A stretch of 45,489 nt of DNA, taken from NCBI GenBank assembly GCA_014238225.1, contig JABABL010000006.1:1-45489 (forward strand), given 5' to 3'. Numbering within the stretch: the stretch's first letter is position 1; each line of letters opens with the position of its first letter. Source of the stretch: Mycoplasmatales bacterium. Lineage in GTDB: Bacteria > Bacillota_I > Bacilli_A > Mycoplasmatales > JABAAY01. This document shows, piece by piece, positions 3,256 through 41,380 of this stretch. The position numbers and the translations under genes are program-made. The notes beneath the pieces were generated by a model that was given only the letters and a program-made list of their open reading frames with translations, searched no databases and was not told the DNA's origin.

Positions 3256-4084
3256 TCCTAACGAAATAAACAACACACACAAAGGTGTGAAAAAAAATAT
3301 AAAAAAAACTTCTAGTAAAAAAGTAAACAAGAACGATAAAAAAGTAAGCAAAACCTCCTGGGAAAACAAGGGTTTTGTGGAAATTGTCAATAAAAATAAG
3401 GAAAAAGAACTAACCACGTGGGAATCAATGAAACAACACACACACGATTATTTTTATGTACGAAGATTTATTCCAAAATACTTTGCTTGAAAGGCAGGCA
3501 TGATTCTTTTTTTGGTTGGACTTTTCATTGCTTTACGAGTTATTACATCCTTCGTAATTTTACGCGGCAATAATCCTGATTTGCTAAACCACGGTATTCC
3601 TTTTGCAGATGGTATAGCTGGTGTTAGTGCAGCCATTGCTGTAGAATACAATAATGGTTTGTTTTTTGGAATTAGTTCCAGCGATGACTTGGAGTGATTG
3701 GTTTGACTCTCCGGCGCTCTGATTATTTCTGCAGCTTTTGTTGCAATTATATTTGTGGAATCACGTTCTTTGTTTTTCTTAATAGGTCTTTTCCTAGTTG
3801 GCTCATTTAGTAATTATTTTGACAGAATTATTTTTAGACATGATGGACAACCTGCTGTTATTGACTTTATTTACTTGAATTTTAATCAAATATTAAACAC
3901 TGACTTTTTTACAGGCGCTTCTATATCCAATCCTGCAGACTTTCTAATTGTAATTTCTTTACTAACTGCTTGATTAATATTTATTATTAAACTATTCACC
4001 GGAGATAAAAAGAAGGAAATCTCCAAAAAAAATAAAGAAATAAATGCAAGACTTAACAATACAAAAACTGAAATACAAAAATAA
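3248..4084 (+). CDS. lspA: Lipoprotein signal peptidase (signal peptidase II)
   Basis: Membrane aspartyl protease that cleaves prolipoprotein signal peptides after lipidation. The catalytic pair sits in GSFSNYFDRI (around residues 185-194) and NPADFLIVI (around 228-236), matching the family pattern N-x2-DR and N-x-AD. Four hydrophobic segments follow a roughly 80-residue, strongly Lys-rich cytoplasmic N-terminus that ordinary LspA proteins lack; the protein is 278 aa against about 150-160 usually. The start overlaps ileS by 8 bases and the end overlaps rluD by 41. Its presence implies lipid-anchored surface proteins. Confidence 0.9.
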
Positions 4085-4988
4085 ATTCTACGAAAAAGAA
4101 AGATTTGACAAAGCAGCAATAAACTTTATTGAAAATACAACTCGCTCACAAATTAAATATTTGATTCAAAATGGTTGTTTATTGCTGAATGATAAAAAAG
4201 TTAAACCCAGCGATCCCCTTGTGGAAGGAGATGAAATTTCCATAATGGAATGTTGTTTATTTGAAAATGAACAGAAACTAAGAGTTAATAAAGATCGAAA
4301 AATCTCAGTATTATTAGAAACAGCAAATTACATTATTGTAAATAAGCCTTTTAACTGTGTAACACATCCCGATGCTTCGCATCAAGATAATAGTTTAGTT
4401 AATTATGTTTTATCTAATACTGAACTATATGTAAATAAAAATAATATTGAAAGATCGGGGATTGTACATCGCCTAGACAAAGATACTACCGGAGCTATCA
4501 TTCTTGTAAAAAATATCGAGGCTCATAATTTGTTTGTCAATATGTTTAAAAACCAAACAATAGTGAAAAAATACATTGCCATCACTGATGGTATTTTACC
4601 TAACGATGAACTTCTAGTAAAACTTCCGCTCGCTCGCTCTTCTCAAAACAGAATAAAGATGATGGTTGATGGCAAAAAAGGGAAAAAAGCAATAACGAAG
4701 ATTAAATTACTGGAGAGAAAGGCAGAGTACTGTCTTGTTGAATGTGAACTAAAAACCGGGAGAACGCATCAAATTCGAGTTCATTTAGAATATGTCAAGG
4801 CACCTGTTTTAAATGACCCTACATATGGAAAAATTATCGAAAAAACAAATTTTGGTCAATATCTTCACTCCAAATTTTTAGAGTTCATTGATCCCTTTAC
4901 CAATAAAAAAATAGAGATTGAAGCACCATTCCCACCAGAATTTAAGAATAAAATGAAAGAGATAGGATTTACATGAAAAAAGAAATAG
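4044..4988 (+). CDS. rluD: RluD/RluA-family 23S rRNA pseudouridine synthase
   Basis: An N-terminal S4 RNA-binding domain (about residues 20-75, SRSQIKYLIQNGCLL-like) is followed by a pseudouridine synthase domain with the catalytic HRLDKDTTG motif and GRTHQIRVH. It isomerises uridines in large-subunit rRNA. A standard-code reading stops at the TGA at 4974. With UGA=Trp it runs on four codons (W-K-K-K) to TAG at 4986, giving 314 aa. The first ATG overlaps lspA by 41 bases, and I see no better internal start. It overlaps the dCMP deaminase start by 16 bases. The symbol is by family; RluA/RluC-type specificity cannot be excluded. Confidence 0.9.
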
Positions 4989-5479
4989 TAGGACCAAGAA
5001 AAGACGTAATAGAATGGGAAGATTACTTTATGGTAATTACAAAGTTAGTAGCACTTAGAAGCAAAGACCCCAACCATCAAGTTGGTTCAATTATTGTTGA
5101 TAAAAGACTAAGAATTGTTGGAACTGGGTATAACGGCCTACCGCGAGGTTTAGATAACGAGGATTTTCCTTGAAACAGAGATGGAAATTTTAGCGACACT
5201 AAATATGCATATGTTGTTCATGCTGAGCAAAATGCCATTCTAAACTCTTTTGTTGAGTCATTGGAAGATTGCACCATTTATTCAACACTTATGACATGCG
5301 AAAAGTGTGTAAAAATGATAATACAATCAGGCATCAGAAAAATCGTCTTTTCTGAATACAATTATCGTGAAAAAGAACAAAACAAGGCAGCTCAAAAAAT
5401 GCTTGTTTCCGCAGGAATAGAAGTTGTCCACAAAGAGAAAATCTCTGAAGATGTTATTAAAAAAATTAACCTATTTTAG
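4973..5479 (+). CDS. Deoxycytidylate (dCMP) deaminase
   Basis: Zinc hydrolase converting dCMP to dUMP, the substrate of thymidylate synthase (thyA at 11416). The cytidine-deaminase zinc site is visible as HAEQNAI and TCEKCVK; the usual PC of the second half is TC here, but both Cys ligands are kept. The N-terminus (WEDYFMVITKLVALRSKDP) and GYNGLPRG are typical of the ComEB/dCMP deaminase family. It is 168 aa with one in-frame UGA as Trp. It is translationally overlapped with rluD and converges with the ferritin gene, overlapping it by 14 bases. Confidence 0.9.
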
Positions 5480-5969
5480 TTTCTTTGTCTCGTTTACCCA
5501 ATTCATTATCTAAAACGTAAATACCACCGCCATTTTTGGCCAGTTTAAATTTATCTTCTAACTCATTGAATAAATCTACTTCTTCAACTTGTTCTCTTAC
5601 GAACATTTGAAGAAATTCCATCGTTGCGTAATCTTTTGATTTATGAGAATAATCAACAATTTCGTGAATATCCCGAGTTGTTTTTATTTCAAATTCTTTT
5701 CCTTCCATTGTAATAGCTAAATAATCTTTAGCTTTTACTTCTGGGTAAGGCATTGCCGTGACTATAGGAACTTCATCTTGGGAAAGCATATAATTGTAAA
5801 ATGCCTTTGCATGCAGAAGTTCTTCTTCAGAATGACAATTTAATCAATGAGAAAAACCCGGCATTCCTCAACTTGCAACTAATGCACTCATATTACGGTA
5901 CAACGAAGACGAATATAACTCCTTGTTAAATTGCACATTTAATAAATCATAAGTTTTTTTATCTATCAT
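5466..5969 (-). CDS. ftnA: Ferritin (non-haem, FtnA-like)
   Basis: Iron storage and detoxification protein: oxidises Fe(II) at a ferroxidase centre and stores the mineral in a 24-mer cage. The 167-residue four-helix protein matches bacterial FtnA along its length. Ferroxidase ligands visible are the Glu in KELYSS, the Glu and His in SEEELLHAKAF, the Glu before IKTTRDIHE, and EQVEEVDLF with Gln and Glu. The end GGGIYVLDNELGKRD matches the FtnA E-helix region. Two UGA codons encode Trp. The start overlaps the end of rnhC by 11 bases, so both are probably on one transcript. Ferritin is unusual in mollicutes. Confidence 0.93.
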
Positions 5970-6816
5970 TTTGCTCCTTTACTCTTATTGTATTCTTAAA
6001 ATGTTTTTTTGTGTAGAAATTCAGAATTTCTTCCCCATGTTTTTTGTATAATTCTCGCACTTGTTTATCTACTAAATTTGAAGCTCCTAAAGCAGTTTCA
6101 ATGTTTAATTTTTTATTTTGTTCTTCAATAAACATTAAGAAATGATATCTTGCTATTATCGATGCTATTGACGCTCCTCTGAAAAGCGAATCAGCTTTTT
6201 CTATTAATAAGTAGTTTTTTGAGAAGATAAAATTTTGTGTCTCCATTTTGTTTATTTTTTCCGTATATTCCAGCATTTTTTCTCTCGCTGCATATTTGTC
6301 AATTATAGTTTTTCCTTCTGGTTTGATATTTTTTAAATTCAACAAGTGAATGTAGGTTTTAATGACATGAGCATTAAAACCTCGTGAAATTAAATCGTTA
6401 TATTTTTGGTTTGTCAAAATTATGGATTTATGTTTCACAATTTTAGATAGTGATTTTCCCAACGAAAGAATTGTATTTTGGCTAAGTTTTTTAGAATCAA
6501 ACGTTCTTCAAAGATCTAAATTCTCATAATCAGATGACTTAAGCTTCACAGTGGTACAAACCAAAGGAGCAAAATAGTCACCGACACCAACCTCATCCGA
6601 ACAAGTATTAACTAAGTAGTTTTTATTTTTTTGAATTCACTTGTTGATTGTAAATTTCAGTATTTTTTCTAATTCACGTGAGTTTTTTATAATGTTTAGT
6701 TGAACAAATTCTTTGTTCATTTTGATTATGTGAACAGAGTCATTTAAATCAGTATCGTAATCGTGTACATTCCTTAAATATAGAAAGCAAACATTCTTCT
6801 CTAAAAAGTAAGTCAT
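5959..6816 (-). CDS. rnhC: Ribonuclease HIII
   Basis: Cleaves RNA in RNA/DNA hybrids, removing R-loops and primers. The catalytic domain begins with SDEVGVGDYFAPLV, close to the family signature DEVGxGDYFGPLV with one Gly-to-Ala change, followed by DSKKLS and a late ADSLFRGASIASIIARY block carrying the remaining acidic residue. The N-terminal domain (about 75 aa) has the length of the RNase HIII substrate-binding domain. It is 285 aa with several UGA=Trp codons. The start is preceded by a -10 box only 8 bases upstream and no Shine-Dalgarno. It is co-oriented and overlapping with ferritin. Confidence 0.9.
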
Positions 6817-6824
6817 AAAATAAA

Positions 6825-6834
6825 ATTATATAAT
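6825..6834. promoter_or_regulatory. Palindromic -10 element shared by rnhC (-) and the 6854 gene (+)
   Basis: ATTATATAAT is its own reverse complement. It presents TATAAT to the right at 6829-6834 and TATAAT to the left at 6830-6825. To the left it lies 8 bases from the rnhC ATG. To the right it lies 19 bases from the ATG at 6854, with a GGAG ribosome binding site at 6841-6844. Symmetric -10 elements are known to fire in both directions. Confidence 0.55.
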
Positions 6835-6853
6835 AATAGTGGAGAAAAAATAA

Positions 6854-7879
6854 ATGATTCCAGAATTACCCATTCCATTTAATACTACAATTCCCTTTTT
6901 TATAATCCCACTAGTTTTTGGGGTCGTAGTTGCAATTTTAAGCATTGTAGGATTATTGGTTGGATTTTATTTTTCTGCATACTTTTTGATCATTGAATTG
7001 TTATTTGTAATTATTGCTAGTGCAACCGTAGTGACTGCATTAAATGGAGGTGACAATATTCTCTCCAATGGAATAAACACAGGACTCGAAGCATTGCTCA
7101 CAAGGTTAGTAACGGTTTCAGATACCAACGTTGCAGCATTAATTTCTGGTCTTTTGGAGTATGTGACATTAATTGTTTCAGAGCTTGTGTACTATGTTCT
7201 TTTTCTTCTTGGTGGAGCTATTCTTGCAATAGTAACCTATTTATTTCCGTTGCGCTTTTTTCTAAAGAGAGCGAAATTACCATGAACAGTTAACCGAATA
7301 GGTGGAATATTAGCAGGAGCCGCAATCGGTGCAGGAATTGGTTCATATGTAATTCTTCCTTTTTCATACTCCTCCCTTATTGTTGGTGGAGACAGCGAAG
7401 CTGGTGAGTCTTTCACTGATAACAGTGACATTTTGCAATTTTTAACTGAGACTATAGGAATACAATTTCCAGCATTGCCAAGTCAAGAAGACTTAGACTT
7501 AATTTTATCTGCAGCAACTTCTTTTCTTGATCTTGGAACCAATATTCAAAATCTTGTTTCTGATGGAGGAGAAGATCAGTCTGCATTTATTGAATCGTTT
7601 TTCTCTCCACAAGAATCTGGATTTACATTAGAACAGCAGCTTGTTAATTCCCTTGTTCTGGTTGTGGATGCACTTACTTTCAACAACGATAGATTTTTAA
7701 TAGATATAGTTGTTGGAGTGATTGAGGCATTCGGTGGACAATTATCAAACGGAATTCGCATACCAGAATTTATTTTTCAGGGAGTTTTAAGGCAAGTTGT
7801 AGAGCAAAGATCACAAAACATTCCTAGCAATATAATAAATACATTTAGAAATATTTTTGTTACTCCCGCTGCCTCTTAA
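6854..7879 (+). CDS. Multi-pass membrane protein of unknown function
   Basis: A 341-residue protein, continuous only with the TGA at about 7282 read as Trp. Four hydrophobic segments cover roughly residues 13-38, 42-64, 112-140 and 150-175. A soluble C-terminal domain of about 160 residues follows, rich in Gln, Asn, Ser and acidic residues (SQEDLDLILSAATSFLDLG). There is no signal-peptide cleavage site and no motif I recognise. The layout is faintly reminiscent of CvpA-type membrane proteins, but I would not assign it. A GGAG ribosome binding site sits 9 bases upstream, and acpS follows after 7 bases, suggesting co-transcription. Confidence 0.75.
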
Positions 7880-7886
7880 GGATATT

Positions 7887-8201
7887 ATGAAAATAGGATG
7901 TGATATTCAAAGTATTTCTGATTTTACCAACCTAAAGTTAGCATTTAAAATTTTAAGCGAAGAAGAGTTAAAAATTTTTGATTTAATCAATTCTACACAA
8001 AGAAAAACTGAATTTCTTGCCGGAAGATGGTGTGCAAAAGAAGCCATTTTGAAAGCTATCGATAATAAAATAAAGTTCAAGGACATTTCCATAGTTTATC
8101 AAGACAAAAAGCCTTTTTGAAAAAATTCTGCGGAACACAAAACATCTATTTCCATATCACATTCCAAGGATTATGCGATGGGCGTGGCAATAATTGAATA
8201 G
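7887..8201 (+). CDS. acpS: Holo-[acyl-carrier-protein] synthase
   Basis: Transfers 4'-phosphopantetheine from CoA to the serine of acyl carrier protein. The 104-residue protein starts MKIGCDIQSI, placing the metal-binding Asp where the family has GxDxxxI. It contains FLAGRWCAKEAILKAI, equivalent to the catalytic FAAKEA helix, and ends with SISHSKDYAMGVAI, the ISxSH motif. The ATG at 7887 is chosen because AAGG lies just upstream and the product then begins exactly at the family N-terminus. One UGA encodes Trp (FWKN). ACP is kept in most mollicutes even where fatty acid synthesis is lost. Confidence 0.92.
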
Positions 8202-8211
8202 CTTATTATTT

Positions 8212-8220
8212 TGTTATACT
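8212..8220 (+). promoter_or_regulatory. Extended -10 promoter for the mannosidase gene
   Basis: TGTTATACT is an extended -10 (TGn plus TATACT at 8215-8220). It ends 7 bases before the ATG at 8228 with no Shine-Dalgarno between, so the mRNA should start at or beside the start codon. Confidence 0.5.
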
Positions 8221-8227
8221 TTTATTG

Positions 8228-10927
8228 ATGAAAAATAAAATATTTGTTATTCCTCATACGCATTGAGACAGGGAATGATATTTTGCTAAAGACGATATTG
8301 ATATTTTAATGGAGGATAATTTACAAGTTATTGTGAATTTTGGAACAAAAACAAGACTTAAAAATTTCTTATTGGATGGACAAACGTCTTTATTAGAAGA
8401 ATTTAGAGACGGTTGTCCAGTTCTTTGAAATAATATTAAAGAACTACTGACAAACCAAACACTTCTTACTGGACCATGATTCTCCCAACCAGATTTTTTT
8501 AGCACATTAGCAGAATCAACTATTCGTAATCTAGAAATTGGAAAAGAGTTCATGGACAGATACGGGTTATCAACAAAAACCATTTATAGTCCTGATTCCT
8601 TCGGCTTTCCTGAAAATTTACCCAGCATTTTTAATCACCTTGGTTTCAAGGAATTTGTCTTTTGAAGAGGAGGTTCTTACGATGAACTACAAAAAACAGT
8701 TATTCAAAACTGAACATCACCTGGTGGTGAATCAGTAAAAAGTTTTTGTTATTATTACGGATATTTCATGTTGGGAGCATATTTTCCGTACTCAGAGTTA
8801 AAGGAAGAACTTGCTACCAAAAGAGATAATCTTGAAAATGTTGAAATATTGGACGAATGAGTTGACAGATTTATTTTAGAAGCTAAAAACATGATTGATA
8901 ATATTTCGGAGAAGACCGCAGATGTTGAGCACAAAATGCTTGTTCCATTAGGCGGAGACCAAGCACCCATAACATCCTTAATTCCTAATTTTATAGAAAA
9001 AGTAAATGAGAGAGATCCTGATAATGAATGAATTGTTTCCAATTTCACAACCTATTTCAAGGAAATTAAAGACGCAAAATTAAGCAGCTTTAGTGGTGAA
9101 TTAAAAACTCCATATCGCGGACGTATTCACAAAACCATCACTTCGCATAGATACGACATTAAAAGGGAAAATAGATATATTGAAATTTTGTTATATAACG
9201 TTTTAGAACCCTTGGCAGTTATTTATAAGCAGATTTTCACAAAATTTGAATTAAAAGGAAACTTCGAAAGAGCTGTCAGGTTCTTGCTTCTTTCTCAAGG
9301 TCATGATAGTATGGGGTCTTGTTGTACTGATTCAACAAACGAAGATATATTATTGCGTTTGAAGAGATCCAAGGCAATTATCGGAAGTTATGTTGAGTTA
9401 ATGAAAAAGAAAATTGCGGAAGCCAGTAGGGCGAAAGGGAACGACTTGTTTCTTTACAATTTTTTACCCACTAAGCGTGATGTTATTGCAAGAGTTAATG
9501 TATTCAGCAGGCTTGAAAATTTTAAAATATTTGCTGATCAGAAAGAAATTGACTACTTAATTTTGAAAAAAGTCGCCATTAAAGAAGGTTTTGATTACGA
9601 ATACTATGATAACTACAACGAATATGATGGATTCAAAACGAGAATTTTATTGAAATACCCTTTTGATGGCTTAGGTTATAAAAAACTGAAAATTATAGAA
9701 CACAAAAGCAAAGAGCGAAAATACTTAGGGGAGAAGGCCAAGCATATCGAAAATTCTCATTATAAAGTTTGAGATGACGGTGAGCAACTGTATATTAAGT
9801 TTAAGAAGGAACAAAGGACAATTTCCTTGAAGTTGTCTTGTGTCTTTAACGAAGGAGATGCGTACGACTTTTCTCCCTCAAAAAAATACAGCAAAGAAAT
9901 TGTAAGAAGATTGCATCTTCACCAAGCAGAATACAGAACAGCAAATGAATATGGATATGTTAAATTCGATTGAGATGCTAGCTATTACCGTGAACCCGAT
10001 TTAGTCACAACAAATTTCCAAACATACTTCGTTAGAGTAAAAGTTGTTGATGACCAAATATTTTTTGACATGGATACTTACAACGCTTCTAAAAATTCAA
10101 AATGAACACTAGATGTAACACATTGAATTCCAAATCCTAAGAACTCTTATGCTTCTCAACATCTCGTTTATTCTAAAAGAAAAGTCAATGACCCGCAAAC
10201 TAAAACCTGAAAGCAACACAAATACACAGAGTACCCCGTTGAGATTAACACAAATGACGGAATTATTTTTCTTAAAGATAAAGCTTTAGGGAAAGCTCTT
10301 ACGGTATTTACCTTTGGAAATAACGAATATGAAATTTGCAAAAAGACAGGAAAAATAAAATTAACATTATTCAGAACCTGTGAAGTGCTTGGTAAATCTA
10401 ATCTATTGTGACGTCCAGGGCGTGCATCGGCTTCAGAAGCTAAATATAATCACACTCCTGATGCGCAATTAAACAAAAAACTAAAATTTAGAATAGGTTT
10501 TGGACTATGTAAGGAAAAAGATTTAACAAGGAGATATCAAGGAATAGCTGTTCAAGGAAAATATTATCAAAAGCAAAATATATATGACATGTACAATCGT
10601 CTCGATCGTTTCTTCACATCCAGCACAACATACATAGACCCCAAGTATTCTTCGGGAATGAAACTATTTTCTTTTTCGAAAAATACCTTTGGAATCTCTG
10701 CTGTGAAACCCATTGATAAAGATTCCTGTTTGGTAAGAGTTTATAACCCTACAAACACTGCGGTAACCAATGTCGAGGTAAATAATGGTTTTATAATGCA
10801 AGAGAACGGTCAGCATTTAAGATGTTTTTCTCTTGACAAATACCAGTTTAAAACTCTAACCATAAAAAGAGCAAGCGATAACTTGGAGGAAGAAGAGATA
10901 ATTAGTACCTCTACTTTCATTATTTAA
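8228..10927 (+). CDS. Alpha-mannosidase, glycoside hydrolase family 38 (MngB-like)
   Basis: Zinc-dependent glycosidase releasing terminal alpha-mannose. The N-terminus carries PHTHWDREWY, with the zinc-binding His and Asp. YSPDSFGFPE holds the catalytic nucleophile Asp, and the later QGHDSMGSCCTD matches the conserved QHHDa/ZnHis region. The protein is 899 aa, like E. coli MngB (877), with no signal peptide, so a cytoplasmic enzyme acting on imported substrate is likely. More than ten UGA codons are Trp. It stands alone with its own promoter; no PTS or mannose-6-phosphate gene is nearby, so the substrate is unknown. A host-derived mannoside is an inference. Confidence 0.92.
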
Positions 10928-28346: not shown

Positions 28347-29265
28347 CTTTGTTTTTATAGGTACCGGAGTTTTTGCCGGACAAATTGTCCAAGGGTTGAT
28401 AAAAAGTGGCCACAAACCAGAGTTAATTATTTCTAAAACTTCGTCTCCTAAAGAAGGCAAACAAAATAGTGTTAGGAAAATTGCTTTGGAGAATAAAATC
28501 CCTTTTTTGGAGTGTCAAAGTAATTCAGAATTTAAAGTCATTATAAAAGCCATGCCTGCTAATCCAGATAAGTTTGCAATATTGTGTTCCTTTGGTCTGA
28601 TTATTTCATCAGATGTCATTAGTTTTTTCAATAAAAGGGTATACAACGTTCATCCTAGTCTGTTGCCAAAGTATCGTGGTTCTAATCCAATATGCTCTGC
28701 CATAATGAAAAACGAATTTAGAACCGGTATTTCAATTATTCTTCTAAATGAAAAAATGGATGCCGGCAACATCATCTACCAAAGATCCATTACCATAGAG
28801 GAAAATGATGATTATGAAATTGTTAGTAGTAAATTATTGAAAATAACAAATGATTTTCTTCGCGAAGAATGAAAAAGCATCGCAGATTTTGAAAGTGATG
28901 GCATGGAACAAAATCATGAATTAGCTACTTTTACTTCCAAGATTTCAAAGGATTCAAGAAAAATTTATTGAAATAATAGTTCTATCGAAATAAAGAATTT
29001 AATTAGATCATTGCCACCCACTGATAGGGCGTTCACATATTGAAATGAGAAAATGATATTTTTTGAAAATGTGTCTGTTTCAAGCGAAAGTCCCAACATA
29101 CCTTTCGGTGTTGTTTTTAATGTATCAAAAAAATCCTTTCAAGTAAAGTGTGGCCAAAACAGTATTTTGATTCCCAACATAATGATAGAAGGTAAAAAAA
29201 TGAATAAGTTCGGTGATTTTTTAAACGGACATAAAGAATTTCAAGATGGAGAAAAATTTGGATAA
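28339..29265 (+). CDS. fmt: Methionyl-tRNA formyltransferase
   Basis: Formylates initiator Met-tRNA using 10-formyl-THF, tying initiation to the folate pool that ThyA and FolA serve. FVFIGTGVFAGQIVQGLI is the N-terminal Rossmann region. The catalytic block is YNVHPSLLPKYRGSNPI, with the essential His, followed by TGISIILLNEKMDAGNIIYQ with the conserved Asp. The C-terminal tRNA-binding barrel is diverged. It is 308 aa with several UGA=Trp codons. It overlaps the microprotein by 8 bases and lepA by 20. Confidence 0.95.
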
Positions 29266-31045
29266 TATACGTAATTTTTCAATCATTGCGCATATTGATC
29301 ACGGTAAAAGTACACTTGCAGACCGTATTTTGGAATTAACCAATGCTCTTTCAAAAAGGGAAATGAAAGATCAATTTCTTGACGAATTAGAAATAGAAAG
29401 AGAAAGAGGAATAACTGTCAAACTTAATACTGTAAGACTATCTTATAAGTACGAAGGAAAGGAATGGATTCTTAATCTAATTGATACACCAGGCCATGTT
29501 GATTTCAATTACGAGGTGTCAAGAAGCTTGCAATCATGCGAAGGAGCACTTTTGCTTGTTGATGCTTGTTCCGGAATCAAGTCTCAGACGCTAGCAAATT
29601 TATATCTTGCCCTTGAGCAGAACTTAAAAATAATACCCGTTATAAACAAAATTGATTTACCTAACGCTAACATCGAAGTCGTAAAACATCAAATCATGAA
29701 TTTATTGAATTGCGAGGAAGAAGAAATCGTTCTAATTAGTGCTAAAAACGGCACTAATGTCGATAAATTGATTCATTCCATAATAAAGAACATTCCTGCT
29801 CCTAAAGCTCAATCTAATGACTTTAAGGCGCTTATTTTTGACACTTATTATGACACCTTTAGAGGTACTGTATTGTTAATTAGGGTTTTCCAAGGCGAAA
29901 TCAAAAGAGGGCAAAAAGTTAAGATTTATAATTTGAATAAACGCTTTAGCATTCAAGACACTTATTATAAAATGCCAAAGGAAGAAAAATGTGAAAAAAT
30001 ATCTGCTGGAGAGGTTGGTATAATCACTATTAAAAATAGAAATCCCAAGCTTTCCTTGCTAGGTGACACCGTTATGGATGAAGATAACGATTCTTTAGAA
30101 CCATTCGGTGGTTATCGTGAAATAAAACCGTTTGTCTTTTCTAGCCTTTATTCCATTGACAGCAATGATTTTAAGGCTTTACAAGATGCGATTTTAAAAA
30201 TTCATGTTGCTGACTCAAGTTTTACTTATGTGAGAGAAAATTCCAGGGCATTGGGATATGGATTTAGATGTGGATTTTTAGGAACACTACATATGGAAGT
30301 TATAAGAGAAAGACTTGAAAAAGAATATAACTTGGATCTTATTATCAGTACTCCGCAAGTTGTTTATAAGATTTTGCTTACTAACGGAGAAACAGTTATG
30401 CTCGATAATGCTTATAAATTTCCAGATCGAACTTCAATTGCAGAAACATTAGAACCCATTATTAATGCGAAAATATTTGTTAGAAACGAATACATTGGTA
30501 AAATTATGGAACTTTGTCATTATTCACGAGGAGAATACATTGATAGTGAAATTTTTGATGAAAACAATACGATTCTTAATTTTTACTTACCGCTCGGCGA
30601 AATTATATATTCCTTTTATGATCAATTAAAATCCTTATCGCAAGGATATGCTTCTATGGAATATTCAATATCAGATTATAAAAAAAGTGATTTAGTAAAA
30701 TTAGATATCTTGTTAAACGGAGAAACCATCGATGCACTAAGTTTTATTGTTCATAAATCAAAATCTTACCAATTAGGAAGAGGGATAGCTGAAAAATTAA
30801 AAGGTTCCATTCCAAGACAAAATTTTGAAATTCCTATTCAAGCAACAATTGGTTCTAAAATTATCGCTAGAGAAACCATTAAGGCTGTTAGAAAAAATGT
30901 TACAGCCAAACTATATGGTGGAGATGTAACTCGAAAAAAGAAACTTCTTGAGAAGCAAAAAAAAGGTAAAAAAAGAATGAAACAAGTTGGAAAAGTTTTT
31001 ATACCGCAAGAAGCATTGTCAAATGTTTTTGTGATAAAAAAATAA
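29246..31045 (+). CDS. lepA: Elongation factor 4 (LepA)
   Basis: A translational GTPase that acts on stalled or assembling ribosomes. The 599 residues contain IAHIDHGKSTLADRILE, the switch region ERGITVKL, DTPGHVDFNYEVSRSL and NKIDLPNA, then the EF4-specific C-terminal region (EYIGKIMELCHYSRGEY and AKLYGGDVTRKKKLLEKQKKGKKRMK). It has a full-length canonical structure with no in-frame UGA. It overlaps fmt by 20 bases and is followed by a 72-base gap. Confidence 0.98.
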   Translation: MEKNLDNIRNFSIIAHIDHGKSTLADRILELTNALSKREMKDQFLDELEIERERGITVKLNTVRLSYKYEGKEWILNLIDTPGHVDFNYEVSRSLQSCEGALLLVDACSGIKSQTLANLYLALEQNLKIIPVINKIDLPNANIEVVKHQIMNLLNCEEEEIVLISAKNGTNVDKLIHSIIKNIPAPKAQSNDFKALIFDTYYDTFRGTVLLIRVFQGEIKRGQKVKIYNLNKRFSIQDTYYKMPKEEKCEKISAGEVGIITIKNRNPKLSLLGDTVMDEDNDSLEPFGGYREIKPFVFSSLYSIDSNDFKALQDAILKIHVADSSFTYVRENSRALGYGFRCGFLGTLHMEVIRERLEKEYNLDLIISTPQVVYKILLTNGETVMLDNAYKFPDRTSIAETLEPIINAKIFVRNEYIGKIMELCHYSRGEYIDSEIFDENNTILNFYLPLGEIIYSFYDQLKSLSQGYASMEYSISDYKKSDLVKLDILLNGETIDALSFIVHKSKSYQLGRGIAEKLKGSIPRQNFEIPIQATIGSKIIARETIKAVRKNVTAKLYGGDVTRKKKLLEKQKKGKKRMKQVGKVFIPQEALSNVFVIKK

Positions 31046-31117
31046 CTTAGATTAACCAAAAGACATTTTTTTAGTATATTATTAGTAGTGAATAATAATT
31101 AAGGAAAAGGATAAACA

Positions 31118-32395
31118 ATGGCTAAAAATGATCAATTTATATACGATTTCAACATAAGACACTACTTGTCAAAAGAGGAAATTGCACAAAAACTAGGAAG
31201 TAATTTTCATGAAGATATTTGAAAAAAAATAAAAGAATATCGTAAAAATTATGCAATGCCAGTCGGAGACTTAAAAAAGAACGATGACGGCCCTATGTTT
31301 ATAGTTTTGTCTCCGTTCTTAATGCAAAAGGAAATCTCAGTCCACATGAAGTTATTGAAACTTTGAAAAACTGTTTATAATGTGGAAATAAAAACATTAT
31401 TCGCTAAGGATAGTAAGATTATAAATGATTATGAAACATCTCACATTGCAGATGAAGTTATTAAAATCGCTCATAATTACGGCTATTCGATTAATAAAAA
31501 AATTCTTTTGAATGCGTATTGCGAACACAATAGAGAAGAGTTAGGCCAAGACTATATATTCTCTCTTGGGTTGTTTGAAGCCTTCGAGACAATGGATCAA
31601 TCAAGAGATGTGAATTTTGATGAAAACCTTGTGTATGGATGATTGTCTAAAATAGATAAAAGCATCAAAAAAGATAAAATGTTTAGATTATCTAATGCTG
31701 AAGGGATCCCTGGTTCCTACACAGACAAGTACATGGGATTTAAAACTACTCAACTACAAACTAGATTTTCTACAATTGCTAAATTCGTTAACAGTAGCAT
31801 TGATTATCCTGTAATCATGAAGGCTGCTTTTGTTTTTTATTACATTAAGTATGGTTTGTTTTTTGAAAAGTACAACGATCTTATTGCTATTTTATCGATG
31901 TATTACGTTGTGGGGCATGAATTCGGCGACATCATTAAATTATTGGGAATTATAGGAACAGCAATCAAACAAGAGAAAAAGTTTGACGTTGCGTACAGAA
32001 ACAGTTTGAATAGCAATTCTGATACCACATACATTGTATGAGAAATTATTGATGTTATTTCTGAATCCATAAATAATGTTAATAGCATTATTCTAAAAGA
32101 TTCTGATAAGTATAATATGCCTACTAAAAAAGAAGGCGATTATGCAAAAAAGAAGAAAGCAAACATCGCAAGAATTGAGTTTCCTCAACTTTCAAAGAAA
32201 GCTTCTTTGTTCCTTATCACACACAACAAGCCCTCTAGCAAATATACGTTAGAAAACTATCAAGACTTTTGTCGTTGTAGTTATGAAACCTCTCGTTATT
32301 CAATGGAATTGTTGACAAAACTTGGTTTTTACAGCAAACTTAAACAGGGGAAAAAATTTATTTATTCTCCAACCGATAAAATAAAAGAAATTTAA
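31118..32395 (+). CDS. Fic-fold-like protein with degenerate catalytic motif
   Basis: A 425-residue soluble protein continuous only in code 4 (four UGA=Trp). An N-terminal region of about 170 residues precedes a Fic-like core. DKMFRLSNAEGIPGSY, then IDYPVIMKAAFVFYYIKYG, resembles the Fic lead-in (hPvikAa-lHyxFexIHPF), and GLFFEKYNDLIAILS aligns without gaps where Fic has IHPFxDGNGRxxRLL. Only Phe and Asn survive, and the catalytic His and Arg are gone. A C-terminal winged helix (ENYQDFCRCSYETSRYSMELL) is also typical of Fic proteins. The ribosome binding site AAGGAAAAGG lies about 8 bases before the ATG. Family membership is inferred from pattern, not a search. AMPylation activity is not expected. 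Confidence 0.6.
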
Positions 32396-32398
32396 TAA

Positions 32399-33256
32399 AT
32401 GTGAGACCAAGAGCAAACACAACCGATAAATTTCTCTTCCTCTGCACCTGAACAAAAAAATCATATTGTCACAGAAAAAGAACAATCTTCGTTGCACGTT
32501 CAGATTTCCAATTTTAAATTTAGTAATGATTTTTTAATTAATTACTTACCCTCTAATTATTTCGGAGAAGTAAAAAAAGAAAAGAGATTCTATTATACTT
32601 TTCTGATACTCTTTTTGACTGTTACGATTGCAAGTGGAATCTATGTTTTAGTAGTAGGATTGTTAGAACAATTCAACCTTCCATTTATTTTATCCTCTGT
32701 GTTTTTTGCTATTGTGCTAATAACATCTTCAATACTGATTTGAAAATTTCAATATTTTAGAATAACGATAAAAAGATATTTGGAACACAGAGCTCATTTT
32801 GACAAGAACCGGATTTTTCCGTTTTTCATCTACAATATCTACAAAAGACTAAGGTTAAATTTAACACACATTGCTTGAATATCAGCTTATATATACGCTG
32901 TGTCGTTTATAAGTTCCTTATTTTTTCTGATTGCTCGATTTGATTTTAATTGAGATTTTCTCTTTATAACAGTTAATTGACAGTCTCCTGGAGATTGAAT
33001 TACAACTGTGCTTGTTGGTATCTCTGCTATTTTTATTATTACCATTGTTGTTCAAGTAACATTAAATATAATTATTAGAAAAAGACTTTCTTTATTTCTA
33101 CAAACATATGGCGCCCTTCCAGCTGAAGAAGAGATAATTACACAACTTAAAACCACATTGAATAAAAACTACCGTCTTGTTACAATAGGTATCTTTTTTA
33201 TTGTTACAATACCACTTCTTTTGTTTGTTAAGTATATTCTTAGACGAAAAAGATAA
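32399..33256 (+). CDS. Hypothetical membrane protein following the Fic-like gene
   Basis: 285 aa with about five hydrophobic segments (around residues 64-86, 92-117, 155-180, 200-222, 250-272) and a polar N-terminus (MWDQEQTQPINFSSSAPEQK). Six UGA codons are Trp, several beside membrane segments. It starts 3 bases after the Fic-like stop, so the two are co-transcribed and may act together. No family recognised. It converges with the flavodiiron gene. Confidence 0.75.
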
Positions 33257-33262
33257 TTTGAA

Positions 33263-35947
33263 TTAAGTTAACTTATTTAAAATATTAGTAGAACATTCGC
33301 CTGGATTGCGTGCTGCCTTTATTAATAATTTTTGGGTGTTTTTAACATTTATACCAACACCTCACATTAGGTGACCATCACGGAAAATAAACTTAGTCAT
33401 TTCGTCTTTCGCAACGTCTTGATTAAAGAAAACTAGGTGTTTATTAGTAACAGCTAAATGTTGAGTGTAATCACCCATTGCCATCAACTCAAAACCAAAA
33501 GCAAACAAAGTCAAAGGGTAATCCTTAATTTTATCGAAAATTAAATCATCTCCTGCAGCATTTGCTCCAGCTACGTTTCCTTGATCAAGAGCAGGTGATC
33601 ATAAAAGTTTGTTTGCGTATTCTTTTAGTTCTACAACATCACCACAGGCATAAACATCTTTAACACTTGTTTTCATGCGATCATTTGTTCTAATGCCGTA
33701 AGCGATGTTTATTTTTTTCTTGTCTAGAAAACCTAAATTCCTTCTTACACCAACACTTAAAACCACAAGTTGACAATTTATTTTTGAACCGTCTTGTATT
33801 GAAACAGAAGTTAAAGGTGAAAAATCATCACCTACCACAGAACCATGAATTCTTGTTAGTTGAGAACTTGTGTGCACAGACGCACCCTTTTTTTGAATGA
33901 TTTCTGTTATTAGTTCTGATGACTCCTCGTCTAATTGTCTGTTTAAAATTCAAGGAGACATTTCAACAATGTGAGTTTTTAAACCTTCCTCATTAAAATC
34001 TGATGCGTGTTCTAAACCAAGAGGACCAGAACCAACAACCACAACTTCTTTTACATTATGTGTTTTGATAAAATCTTTGATTTGTTTTACATCATCAATG
34101 GTATTTCAAACAAAAACACCTTGGTGATCAATACCTACAATCGGAGGTTTAGCAGGGCGTGAACCTGTTGCAACAATCAGTTTATCATAATAGTAAGTTG
34201 TATTTGATTCTCCCAAAACAGTTTTTTGATCAAAATCTACACTGATTATTTCCTCATTTGTTATTAAATTAATGTTATTATCTTTAAATCAACTCTTTTC
34301 CCGTAAATAGAGTTCTGTATCCGGTATTTTGTTGTTCAGAAGATCAGAAACAGCAGGTCTGTTGTAAGGGTGATAAGATTCTTTTATTAAAATTGTAATC
34401 TCTGCGTTTTTGTTTCTCATGCGAGCAGCTTCAGCTGCATTTGTTCCGGAGGCCCCGCCCCCTAATATTAGTATTTTTCTTTTGTCCGTAGATTGTTCGG
34501 CAATCTCGATAGCACTGTTCGATATTTCGAAGAAATCCCTTCCTGCACCACAAACTGGGCAAATTTCAGGAGGTAGCACCGCCATAATTGTATAGTCACA
34601 AGCAGTACATCTTCATAGAACCATTTCTCCAGAAGGATTCATGTTCTCGATATCTTCGCTTTCATCCGTTTTCAATAAACCAGAACATGCTACTAAACTA
34701 CCAACAATTTCACCAGCATTTAAAGAACGTGCAAAGTCAGCACCAAACGATTTAGCTTTTACCAATTCAATTTCAGAAGGTTTGAATTTTATTCTAAGAC
34801 CTTCCATAACGCTCATGTTAAGTTGATTAAGACGAGAAGTGATGTTTCCAACTCCCTCTCCACTCCATCCGTAACTACCAAATGCACTTGCAAACTTGCC
34901 GGCGTGAATAACAGGACTTAAGGAAATTGCAATATCTCAAATAACAGGCAGTGCGTCGCCATTTATTGTAGAAGTGCCAAATAACAAACCATCCGCTCAA
35001 TATATTTCATTCATGATTTGTTCTTTTAATTCATGATAGTTTGAAACATCAATTTGGAATTTCTTAACAATAATCGAATCATCAACGCTTTTAATTCCTT
35101 CCTCAATTGCTTCCGCAATTTGTTCGGTATAACCATAGGCAGTAACATAGGGAATTACAACCTTTTTGGCTTCACTGTCATTTTTCTCTGTTGACCAGTC
35201 AACATATTTTTGAATTCATTCTTGTGGATTTTCGTCCAAAATAGCACCATGACCAGTGAAAATTTTTGTTATTTTTAAATCTTTAATTTTTTCATAAGCA
35301 GACAGAACATACTTCTTAAATGGAGAAAATATACATTGATAATAATAAAGATATGAGTCGTTATATTCAGCTAATTTTTCTTTTGGTAATTTTGATATTA
35401 AAAGGTCGTCATGTGAATAATGAGCCCCAAAAACATCACATGTAAACAATCATCCTGTTTCTTCTATATAAGAAAACATTGAATCTGGTCAATGTAAGAA
35501 GGGCGCAGCAATAAATCTAATTGTTTTATCACCAAGACTTAATCTTTGATTATGTTCAACAACCATGGAATCGAAGTCCCTATTAGTTATTTCTTTCAAA
35601 TATTCAATTGCTGGTCTAGTTCCTACTACAGTTATATGAGGAGCAAGTTCTAGTAATTTTTCCAAACTACCCAGATGATCTGGTTCGGTATGATTTGCCA
35701 CTAGATATTTAATCTTATTTAAACTTCCCAATACTGATTTCAATCTTTTGACATAATCGTCAAAATATTTAGCTTTTACAGTTTCAAAAACTGCTGTTGC
35801 TTCCGATCCTTCTACAACATATGAATTATAAGAAGATCCGTATTTAGACATCATGACAATATCAAATACCCTTAAATCTCTATCGATACTTCCAACTCAA
35901 TGTAATTTATCATCTATTTTTTTTGCTTGTATATTTTCTTCTGCCAT
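33263..35947 (-). CDS. Flavodiiron protein-rubredoxin-NADH:rubredoxin oxidoreductase fusion (class F FDP)
   Basis: A single 894-residue chain predicted to carry electrons from NAD(P)H to O2 or NO. Domains in order: a metallo-beta-lactamase-type diiron domain (about 1-250) with NHTEPDH (His86, Glu88, Asp90, His91), FLHW (His152), CDVFGAH (Asp171) and TGHG (His233). Next come a flavodoxin domain (about 255-400, VVIPYVTAYGYTEQIAEAI), a rubredoxin with Cys447-x2-Cys450 and Cys463-x2-Cys466, and an FAD/NAD(P)H oxidoreductase (about 488-894) with ILGGGASGTNAAEAAR and VYACGDVVEL. All metal ligands are present. AAGGGAAGCAC precedes the ATG. This matches the class F architecture known from anaerobes such as Syntrophomonas and Trichomonas. 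About eleven UGA codons are Trp. Confidence 0.95.
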
Positions 35948-35997
35948 GTGCTTCCCTTTATTTTTATTTTAACTCAAAAAAAATTATTTATTTTATC

Positions 35998-36004
35998 TAT
36001 TATA
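35998..36004. promoter_or_regulatory. Overlapping divergent -10 boxes (MazF-like gene + / flavodiiron gene -)
   Basis: Rightward TATTAT at 35998-36003 ends 6 bases before the ATG at 36010, a leaderless arrangement. On the minus strand TATAAT (36004-35999) lies 51 bases before the flavodiiron ATG, giving that gene a leader of about 45 bases with a Shine-Dalgarno. Confidence 0.45.
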
Positions 36005-36009
36005 AAGTA

Positions 36010-36279
36010 ATGCAATACAATAAAAACCACCCTAATGTTGGAGAAATATGATGAGCAGATAACAATTCCTTGTATGGTGGAGAAGGACTGCGACCTGTAA
36101 AGATTTTGAAGGTTAATGAAGAAAAAGAAGAATGCGTTGTTTCTTCTTACACCCATTCCTCCTTCAATAGCGATGTTGTCCAAGACGTTAGCTTAGCTGA
36201 GGAAAAAAAAGGATTACGATACACAAATCGTTATAAAACATATAAAATTAAATTCAAAAGTCTATCACACGAATTCTAG
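36010..36279 (+). CDS. Small MazF/PemK-like protein, 89 aa
   Basis: Read with two consecutive UGA=Trp codons it begins with a block HPNVGEIWWADNNSLYGGEG then LRPVKILKVN. This resembles the opening of MazF/PemK RNases (GDIWWVDL...GxExxxxRPVVIL), including the Arg-Pro that supplies the catalytic Arg. SSYTHSS could supply the second active-site Ser/Thr. At 89 aa it is shorter than MazF (about 110). No antitoxin gene is adjacent: upstream is the divergent flavodiiron gene, and pepA follows after 8 bases. It may be a domesticated housekeeping relative rather than a toxin. Confidence 0.6.
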
Positions 36280-36287
36280 GAGAAAAA

Positions 36288-37682
<1,395 letters not shown>

Positions 37683-37704
37683 CAAATTACAAGTCAGTAT
37701 ATAT

Positions 37705-37710
37705 TAAAAT
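37705..37710 (+). promoter_or_regulatory. -10 box for the exported 511-aa protein, leaderless GTG start
   Basis: TAAAAT at 37705-37710 is followed by exactly 6 bases and the GTG start at 37717, with no Shine-Dalgarno. Confidence 0.4.
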
Positions 37711-37716
37711 AGTTTA

Positions 37717-39252
37717 GTGAAACACAAAAAAAGAAAAATACAAGCCATATTGGGGACTTCCGTTATTGGTGCGAGTATTGCTGTTGGAGCTGTTGCTCAG
37801 ATGTGCGGCAACGCACCGACCACTACCGAAATCATTGCAAACGCCGAGGAGAGAATAGTTGAAGTTTTTGAAGAATTATTTATTTTTAATATCACAAATG
37901 GTTTAATAATTGATGATTTAACAAACGATGTTTTGAATACAATTGAAGCAAATGTGCTTGCGGAATTGAACCCTGTTAACCCAGGATTGGAAACCTTAAC
38001 TTTCAATAACTTTTCATTTTCTAATACCATTTCTCGTAGTGAAATCGAATATACATCAGCTTTGAGGAGTTTTGAAGTTATAATCTTTAATGCAAATATT
38101 GCTTGATCTTCTGATTCTAGTCCTTCAGATAATGGTTTAATATCAAGTAATTTAATTTTTACATTCGCTTTTAACAATAATAATGAATTAACAATTAACG
38201 GAGAAAACGCAATACAAGGAATGGAATTAACTAATACCGCTGCACAAATAGAAATTGCCACAGGTGTCAATGGAATGTTGAGAAGCAATGGTGTAACCAA
38301 TATCAATCCCATCGGGGCTAGTATTTACAGTTCATTGTTAGAAAACGCTAACAGGACCGTTCCTGTAGTGATTGTACCAGATAGCACAACCATTGATTCC
38401 GCCGCCACAGAGATTCTTAATTTGTCATTTAGACCGATTGAACCATCACGAGTTTTAATACAAGACCCTTCTGCTGCAGGAGGAGCCATTTATAGAATTG
38501 ACATTGGAAATGAAGATAATCCAGATGATGACAATTCATTTTTTATTTTGACATCCACTAATTTTGCAAACTCAGGAACATTATTGTCTTTTATTTTGTC
38601 ACCTACATCGATTTTTATTCAAGACGTTGGAAATGGTAATTACAATCTTGTCAATGAGGACGTTTTAACTCCCTCAGGACTAGATAGACCCATTAACACC
38701 TCACTTATTACTGTTCCTCAAGAAGTTAGCGGAATTATAAACTCCGATGTAATCAATCTTTTTACTAGATTTATTTCAGGCGATGCAACAAGTGCAATCA
38801 CTGGCCTTAACGAGCTATATCAATATTCATTTGCCGGATTAGAACCACCAATTTTAAGCGGTGCTGGCATAACACTTAGTTTATTGGAAATCGCTATTCG
38901 AGACTTACTGAATGCAGCATTGCCACCAGAAACAACACCAATTGAATTTGTCTTTGTTACCTCGGTCACTAGTTTAAACCCAGTCGTTTTAAATTCCATT
39001 GACTCTATAATTGGAACTGATGGAATTTTTGATATTAATAACCAAAGACTATCGTTTGATTTGAGTGGATTAGAAGGAAGTTTTGCTATGACAAACGAAA
39101 ATGGAGTGATAGATTTATCAGTTCAAAGAACATTCAGTATTCCTGAAAGTGCTGATTCCAATATTGCTTTTGGTATACCAACCGATAATATTTCCTTTTC
39201 CTCAATTGTTGCAGAAATTGAAGGACAAGAAAACATTGTGATTTCAGCGTAA
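37717..39252 (+). CDS. Large exported surface protein, possible atypical lipoprotein
   Basis: 511 aa from a GTG start. Residues 1-30 form a signal: basic MKHKKRK, then a hydrophobic core ending AVGAVAQMCGNAPTTT. The Cys at about residue 29 is in the right place for a lipoprotein, but Met at -1 and Gln at -2 depart from the lipobox (Leu-Ala-Gly/Ser-Cys), so a lipid anchor is uncertain. The remainder is acidic, Ser/Thr/Asn/Ile-rich with no Cys and no membrane segment, as in mollicute surface proteins of beta-rich type. One UGA is Trp (ANIAWSS). No family recognised. Confidence 0.75.
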
Positions 39253-39254
39253 AC

Positions 39255-40307
39255 TTAACTATTTTGAACTAGTGGTTTTCAAGAATTAAACATTTTCGTA
39301 AATGCTTCATCTTCCAAGGCATCGCATCCCAAATTTTTATAAACAATAAATTGATTTCAACACTCAATGAAATTGCTTTCTATTAATAATGATTTACCGT
39401 GCAATACTGTATTGTAAAGCATCATAAATTGAAGAGCTAAGAGAAAACTTTTTTCTTTTGGATGCTCATTGACTTTTTGTCAAGGGTTTTTACAAAAGAA
39501 AGATTCTAAGTTATTTAACTTTGCCTGATAATCTTTTAAAGTTTTGGTCGTTAAAGGAGTCATAATTTTTTTGTTTTGTAAAATTAAAAATTCTATTTTC
39601 TTTGCTAATCCCACAAAGTAATACGCAGTATTGTGTGCTACACCTTCCTTTGAAGGAACATCATCGTATAAAAATAAATTAACATCATCAGTAATTTTAT
39701 AATTACGAAAAGATATATGGCTTATACCTAAAGTGTTTTCAAATGTTAGATCCACTGGTTCAATTTTTAATGATGAACCCTTAGAAGAATAACGAACTCT
39801 AACATAGTAATTTTTGTTTTGATATACAGCAGGAACTAGCATGTATTTACAGATCTTATTACCAGTTAATCAAGGAATAAATCCGTTTAATACTCAAGCA
39901 CCCTTTTTGTTTTTTTCTAAAGTTAAGGGTTTTTTGGTGTCATTGTTTGCAGTATAAAATGCAAAAGTATCTTTGTTATCTACTATGCTTTTCACTAAAA
40001 CTTCTTTTTTATTAACATCTTTTATTCTTTCAATTATTAAATACGAGTGATGTAATAAAGAAATCAATCAATTTAAGGAAAAATTATACTCAGTTAATAA
40101 TATTTTTGTTTGAACTTCTTCAGCTCTTGAAATTTCAATACCACCGTATTCTTTTTTTATTGCTAATTTTAAAATAAAATTTTCTGCATATTTTTTATAT
40201 ATTTTTTTTAGTTTGTTTTTTTTGTGGTCAAGAGTCATTCTCTTTTCTCCCACTTTTTCTTCAAGAAATGATTTTACTTTCTTAGTATAGTCTGTTTTTG
40301 TATACAT
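39255..40307 (-). CDS. Acyl-CoA dehydrogenase-like protein
   Basis: 350 aa, read through five UGA=Trp codons. LAIKKEYGGIEISRAEEVQT matches the N-terminal ACAD motif (LxIPxEYGGxGxSxxE), and SLNWLISLLHHSYLI fits the following helix. KKGAWVLNGFIPWLTGNKI, then YMLVPAV, corresponds to the central beta-domain signature (dGxyxlNGxKxWxTxGxxAdxxlv). LGISHISFRNYKITDDVNL corresponds to LRxSxtxxlxFxdVxVP. I cannot identify the catalytic Glu or the terminal FAD region with confidence, and the protein is slightly short. A GGAGG ribosome binding site lies within the YitT end; the ATG overlaps the YitT stop (TAATG), so the two are coupled. Function and electron acceptor are unknown. Confidence 0.7.
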
Positions 40308-41380
40308 TATTGTTCTCCTCCGTCGGGTCGTTTGAAATAACCATCAACTCCCATATTTTCAGTATAAGTTATAAATGCAGTTGGTGCAACTTTATTAATA
40401 TTTTTTATTACAAAGTCTTTTTCTAGAAAGGAAATTGTAAAGATTAAAAGTGACTTTTTCATCTTGTCTCGACCACTAGTTGCAGGAAGAACAGTATAAC
40501 TTCTTATATAGCCTGCTTTTGATAATTGGTCTTCAATTGGTAAAATGTGTTCTTCATTTGTAATAACGTTGACGGATAGTTTCTTGTTAATAGGAAAGTA
40601 TTTATCCACAAAAAATGATGACAAAAGTATATATATTATTGTGGCGGCCACTTCAGATGAGAAGGCTTCGAGAAATTCGTTGTCGTTTATTACTTCTAGT
40701 AAAAAGTAAAGCAAAAATACACCAAAAGCCACTATACTTAAATTAATAATTGTGCTTCATTTTCCAATACTACCTTCTTTTTTTCTGCTTACATAGGCAA
40801 CAAAAAAGTCTGTTCCGCCTGCACACCCTCCGGCCTTAAATGTTAAAGCGATTGGTATTCCTACGAAAAAGGCACCAAGAACACCTGCAATTACACGTTC
40901 AGCATCCGCACCTGCTCCCGTTATAATCTCATTGTTACCATCGGTTATTTGTAATATACTTAAATCTCGCAAGCCAGGAATATATGTTCAGCCAATTCCT
41001 CAAGCTGTTTGAAAAAGCATAAAATACAAAGTATAAAAAGTGAATTTTTTCCCTACTTTAATAAATCCAAATATTACGATTGGTATGTTTATTAAGACCC
41101 AAAATACATAGAAAAATGCTTCTAGTGGTATACCAAAAAGTCTGTCGGTTGTACTTAAAGATGTGCCGGTGGCAGGAGCTTGAGTCCTAGTTAAAAGTTG
41201 AACTATAGTCTGGGCTATTCCCGAAGTCCCCGCTGGAATAATACCAGCAGGCAAAACAAAAACATTCAATCCAAACACTATAATGACACAAGCAACAGTA
41301 ATGAGTAAAAGCGATTTAGCAGTGTGTAATTGTTTATAAGGATTTACGATTTTATCTAATTTGCTTTTAGACTCTTTCAC
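40307..41380 (-). CDS. YitT family membrane protein (DUF161/DUF2179)
   Basis: 357 aa: five to six membrane segments including LPAGIIPAGTSGIAQTIVQ and IPIALTFKAGGCAGGTDFF, the two YitT hallmarks, and a C-terminal cytoplasmic DUF2179 domain (VNVITNEEHILPIEDQL through ENMGVDGYF). YitT proteins are widespread in Firmicutes and of unknown function. The start codon is GTG at 41380. A minus-strand TATAAT lies 8 bases upstream with no clear Shine-Dalgarno. Its stop overlaps the ATG of the acyl-CoA-dehydrogenase-like gene. Two UGA=Trp codons. Confidence 0.88.

Follow-up and report, generated by a model that had tools for sequence, protein, structure and literature searches.

A class F flavodiiron protein gene in a UGA-recoding mollicute

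The window (the whole stretch of DNA analysed, 45,489 nucleotides of a Mycoplasmatales contig) carries on its reverse strand, at 33263–35947 with the stop codon included, what we regard as a genuine and intact class F flavodiiron protein (FDP) gene of a mollicute. Its product is very probably a soluble, self-sufficient NADH:oxygen oxidoreductase, which would reduce O2 to water and, at the level of the cell, scavenge O2 and simultaneously regenerate NAD+ for glycolysis. Class F proteins are common in Clostridia and present in Fusobacteria and some Bacilli; they have been reported mainly from Firmicutes (Clostridiales), with some Fusobacteria, Fibrobacteres and Bacteroidetes and two trichomonads (PMC6033852). 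The enzyme type itself is already known; its range now takes in the UGA-recoding Mollicutes, a group with few FDPs and thus a modestly surprising taxonomic home. A literature search gave no report of class F in Mollicutes, though one may exist.

Domain architecture and integrity of the gene

The gene is a single open frame of 894 codons (translation table 4) with no frameshift, in which 12 in-frame TGA codons encode tryptophan. The β-lactamase-like diiron domain (about residues 10–254; 35186–35920, reverse strand as for all parts of this gene) is matched by Pfam ODP (40–234) and Lactamase_B (39–233), and its alignment to E. coli flavorubredoxin starts at residue 12. Directly after it, as in the FDP superfamily at large and by both Pfam and Foldseek, comes the flavodoxin domain, which would bind FMN (about residues 262–411; 34715–35164; Flavodoxin_1, 267–394) and carries Tyr271 at the position of E. 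coli Ser262. The two features that characterize class F follow in the same chain: a C-terminal, rubrerythrin-type rubredoxin (residues 445–474; 34526–34615; RUBY_RBDX, 445–474), whose four cysteines (Cys447, 450, 463 and 466) are conserved in all 59 rows with a whole rubredoxin, and an FAD/NADH rubredoxin-reductase domain (residues 490–894; 33266–34480; Pyr_redox_2, 491–777), which has two Gly-rich dinucleotide motifs and matches NirB/NorW-type NADH:rubredoxin reductases and the NADH:rubredoxin oxidoreductase (NROR) of C. acetobutylicum (3klj). Each of these Pfam matches lies above its cut-off. Class F proteins share about 39% or more identity (PMC6033852), and the window protein reaches this level, being 39–47% identical to 26 non-sister class F proteins, that of C. 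difficile among them. An earlier note, made from the letters alone, had read the gene as one 894-residue code-4 frame with diiron ligands, a flavodoxin, a four-cysteine rubredoxin and an FAD/NAD(P)H oxidoreductase, and had assigned it to class F; both readings hold. No standalone rubredoxin was found with PF00301, a search of little weight, as the same model also misses the fused rubredoxin.

The AlphaFold2 model (mean pLDDT 85, pTM 0.51) predicts the single domains confidently, their mutual arrangement not reliably; its Foldseek matches are E. coli flavorubredoxin, FprA, D. gigas ROO and rubredoxin/ferredoxin reductases, the clostridial 3klj among them. Domains, ligands, fold and the intact gene are established directly. 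A promoter and terminator scan returned sites no more numerous than in shuffled sequence.

That a clostridial or fusobacterial gene was joined to a mollicute contig, as a contaminant or an assembly chimera, would suit a family that is mostly clostridial, but has negligible probability here. Twelve in-frame TGA codons are not expected from code-11 donors, and the codon use of the gene, its TGA:TGG ratio (12:2) and its G+C content (0.339) are like those of the neighboring genes. An independent sister MAG (Mycoplasmatales bacterium bin29s, JABAAY01) encodes a 96% identical protein between the same neighbors, its contig JABAAY010000013 aligning to window positions 28910–40412 as one collinear block of 11,505 bp at 88.8% DNA identity. 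The collinear contig and the TGA use rule out a chimera, which the earlier note had named as one of two findings that would overturn its reading.

The same pair of MAGs bears on the possibility that the protein is a relic that has lost its function or taken on another, such as that of a mere diaphorase. Its branch in the tree is fairly long, as would befit a relic; against this, the protein is full length, shows no frameshift, keeps all ligands and is 96% identical between MAGs whose contig DNA differs by 11%, so that a relic is very improbable. Because protein identity (96%) so exceeds DNA identity (about 89%), purifying selection on the gene, and with it selection for function, is likely.

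Two conserved proteins of unknown function, at 32399–33256 and 31118–32395, adjoin the FDP gene and are retained in the sister MAG. Elsewhere in the window (37717–39252), and at 6236–9648 of locus L036, lie members of a secreted or lipoprotein-like ORF family with a common signal type (...GAVAQMC / ...AQAC); several are consecutive on contig C3 of the window genome (G000:C3), and the window copy has no Pfam match.

Diiron site, electron route and substrate

All seven diiron positions are invariant across the 72 aligned rows, as expected of the FDP superfamily: the motif H86-x-E88-x-D90-H91 (35675–35692), His152 (35492–35494), the bridging ligand Asp171 (35435–35437) and His233 (35249–35251). 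His91, the second conserved histidine of this motif, is not an iron ligand in some of the solved FDP structures. By analogy with characterized class F homologues, from which we infer the electron path, the preference for NADH and for O2 over NO, and water as the product, NADH would reduce the FAD of the C-terminal reductase domain; the electrons would then move through the Fe(Cys)4 rubredoxin of the same chain to the FMN of the flavodoxin domain, and from there to the diiron site, where O2 would be reduced to two waters. FDPs form head-to-tail dimers, and the diiron site that receives the electrons usually belongs to the other subunit. NADH use fits an acidic residue, E662, that closes the second Rossmann strand and dinucleotide motif and is invariant in the 28 class F proteins aligned. 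The redox cysteine of NADH oxidases (NOX) is missing from the reductase domain, which reads SYHPYNRPAVSD where a CoA-disulfide reductase/NOX-like protein encoded on G000:C3 reads FGNCGMPYY (by inspection of the sequences only), so that the oxygen chemistry should sit at the diiron site.

The protein might instead be chiefly an NO reductase, NADH-fed and NorV-like, directed against host-derived NO. The core has its best PDB match, and one of its two top NCBIfam models, in the NO-reducing flavorubredoxin of E. coli, and the first-sphere ligands are identical in O2 and NO enzymes. Neither of the two top NCBIfam models, however, anaerobic NO reductase flavorubredoxin and NirB, comes near its equivalog cut-off, the scores in the NorV equivalog test being 273 and 243 bits where 635 and 711 are required, and Lys58 and Tyr271 stand in place of the E. 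coli Asp and Ser. The C. difficile enzyme (FDP_F) turns over O2 at 16 s-1 and NO at 0.2 s-1, with NADH preferred (PMC6033852), and T. vaginalis FDPF3 shows less than 2% activity with NO (PMC9364112). Because these characterized class F enzymes are O2-selective, NO reduction as the main job of the window protein is unlikely, and we give the NO-reductase reading a low probability. The earlier note's suggestion that the bacterium can detoxify O2 or NO should thus be shifted strongly toward O2, in keeping with the negligible NO activity of the two published enzymes and with Lys58/Tyr271.

At these second-sphere positions the O2-selective enzyme of E. histolytica has a pair equivalent to Lys58/Tyr271; the NO-selective E. 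coli FDP has Asp52/Ser262 (PMC13133992). Lys58/Tyr271 is supporting rather than decisive for O2 selectivity, and no proven switch, because introducing a Lys/Tyr pair into the E. coli FDP left its substrate preference unchanged (PMC13133992) and the C. difficile class F row of the alignment has His at the position of Tyr271, even though that species' enzyme prefers O2.

Distribution and ancestry

An FDP core match is present in 25 of the 320 genomes of the order and the class F fusion in three: the window genome (G000), its sister (G001) and a genome of another family (G002), whose protein is 39% identical to that of the window. The fusion is thus rare, though not unique to the window genome, which agrees with the earlier description of it as not a standard mycoplasma trait. 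In G002 (L034 = G002:C1:128000-146000, positions 1316–10268) the gene lies near dnaA and is immediately followed, on the same strand, by ackA, pta and a 1205-residue PFOR, a placement that suggests protection of the O2-sensitive PFOR; this cannot be the role of the window FDP if PFOR is truly absent from the window genome. A further genome (G004) has a split version (L005 = G004:C1, 234–2736), in which a 439-residue FDP core gene overlaps a 396-residue NADH reductase gene beside rplS/trmD: the core is 47% identical to that of the window and the reductase gene is adjacent, but there are two genes and the core protein has no rubredoxin domain. Most of the remaining matches come from many genomes of one genus in a third family (g47, family f3; G262–G297); the eight copies aligned are plain class A-like FDPs without the fusion, which form a separate starred clade and have His rather than Lys at position 58. 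Gene neighborhoods differ among LepA/M17-peptidase (window), ackA-pta-PFOR near dnaA (G002) and rplS/trmD (G004), several of these names being read off the sequence. With the G002 fusion and the split form of G004, the window gene marks out a set of reduced Mycoplasmatales that apparently manage O2 by diiron chemistry, and offers a concrete test case for the handling of O2 and NADH by soluble enzymes in wall-less symbionts.

The closest proteins outside the order are those of Propionigenium maris (46%) and of a Bacilli family (f21; 50–51% over the FDP core). The class F proteins of P. maris/Fusobacteriaceae and of f21 are without in-frame TGA, unlike the window gene, and have no well-supported sister relation to it. 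No relative of the window protein was found in viral contigs.

In the full-length tree the window and G002 proteins are grouped only at 36/13. The FDP-core tree places these two and G004 amid sequences of Fusobacteria and Bacilli (80/71), a group that lies inside a starred set with one spirochaete and one Negativicute sequence (95/91). The reductase tree unites the mollicutes weakly and on long branches, with support of 55/15 when G004 is left out and 92/72 when it is included. The data do not reject a mollicute clade (p-AU 0.27) or one that joins the window protein with Fusobacteria (p-AU 0.42), and a single origin with the g47 FDPs is borderline (p-AU 0.052). The gene may have been acquired once, long ago, and then moved and split, or it may have been acquired several times; no one named donor is singled out by these trees. 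The earlier note's idea of an inflamed-host niche finds no support, the nearest named relatives coming from P. maris and anaerobic Clostridia.

Redox physiology and comparison with known systems

We infer the NAD+-recycling role from gene content. All four genomes tested have GAPDH, and none of four families, LDH (Ldh_1_N), PFL, PFOR and PDH E1, was found above cut-off in the window and sister MAGs, which are 88% and 77% complete. On this pattern, though it comes from incomplete MAGs, O2-dependent NAD+ recycling is plausible in the window genome and may matter. PFOR is found in G002 and G004, and a PFL-like gene in G004. A stronger proposal, that the genus regenerates its NAD+ chiefly through the class F FDP, with O2 a required electron sink rather than just a poison, we consider rather doubtful; if true, glycolysis would be kept running by soluble, non-energy-conserving O2 reduction, given no LDH or pyruvate-dissimilating enzymes. 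The CoA-disulfide reductase/NADH-oxidase-like gene of G000:C3 (L036, 21–1730), which has the active-site cysteine and a C-terminal extension and whose 5' end lies at the contig edge, may share the role of the FDP. A non-heme ferritin gene, which the earlier note had paired with the FDP, is indeed present at 5466–5969 (reverse strand), but within this genome, some 0.7 Mb in size, it lies about 27 kb away, with no common operon, and this position does not support a joint role.

Among known systems, C. difficile FDP_F (CD1623) matches the window protein in its four domains, their order and its ligands, at 38–39% identity over the full length; it differs in its standard-code host of another phylum and in the His at the position of Tyr271. 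T. vaginalis FDPF1–3, likened here by their published description alone (PMC9364112), share the fusion and the soluble route from NADH to O2, in a host that, unlike the window organism, is a eukaryote. E. coli NorV/NorW shares the FDP core, the rubredoxin and the NADH reductase chemistry with the window protein, but divides them between two proteins and is NO-selective, with Asp52/Ser262 in the second sphere (PMC13133992).
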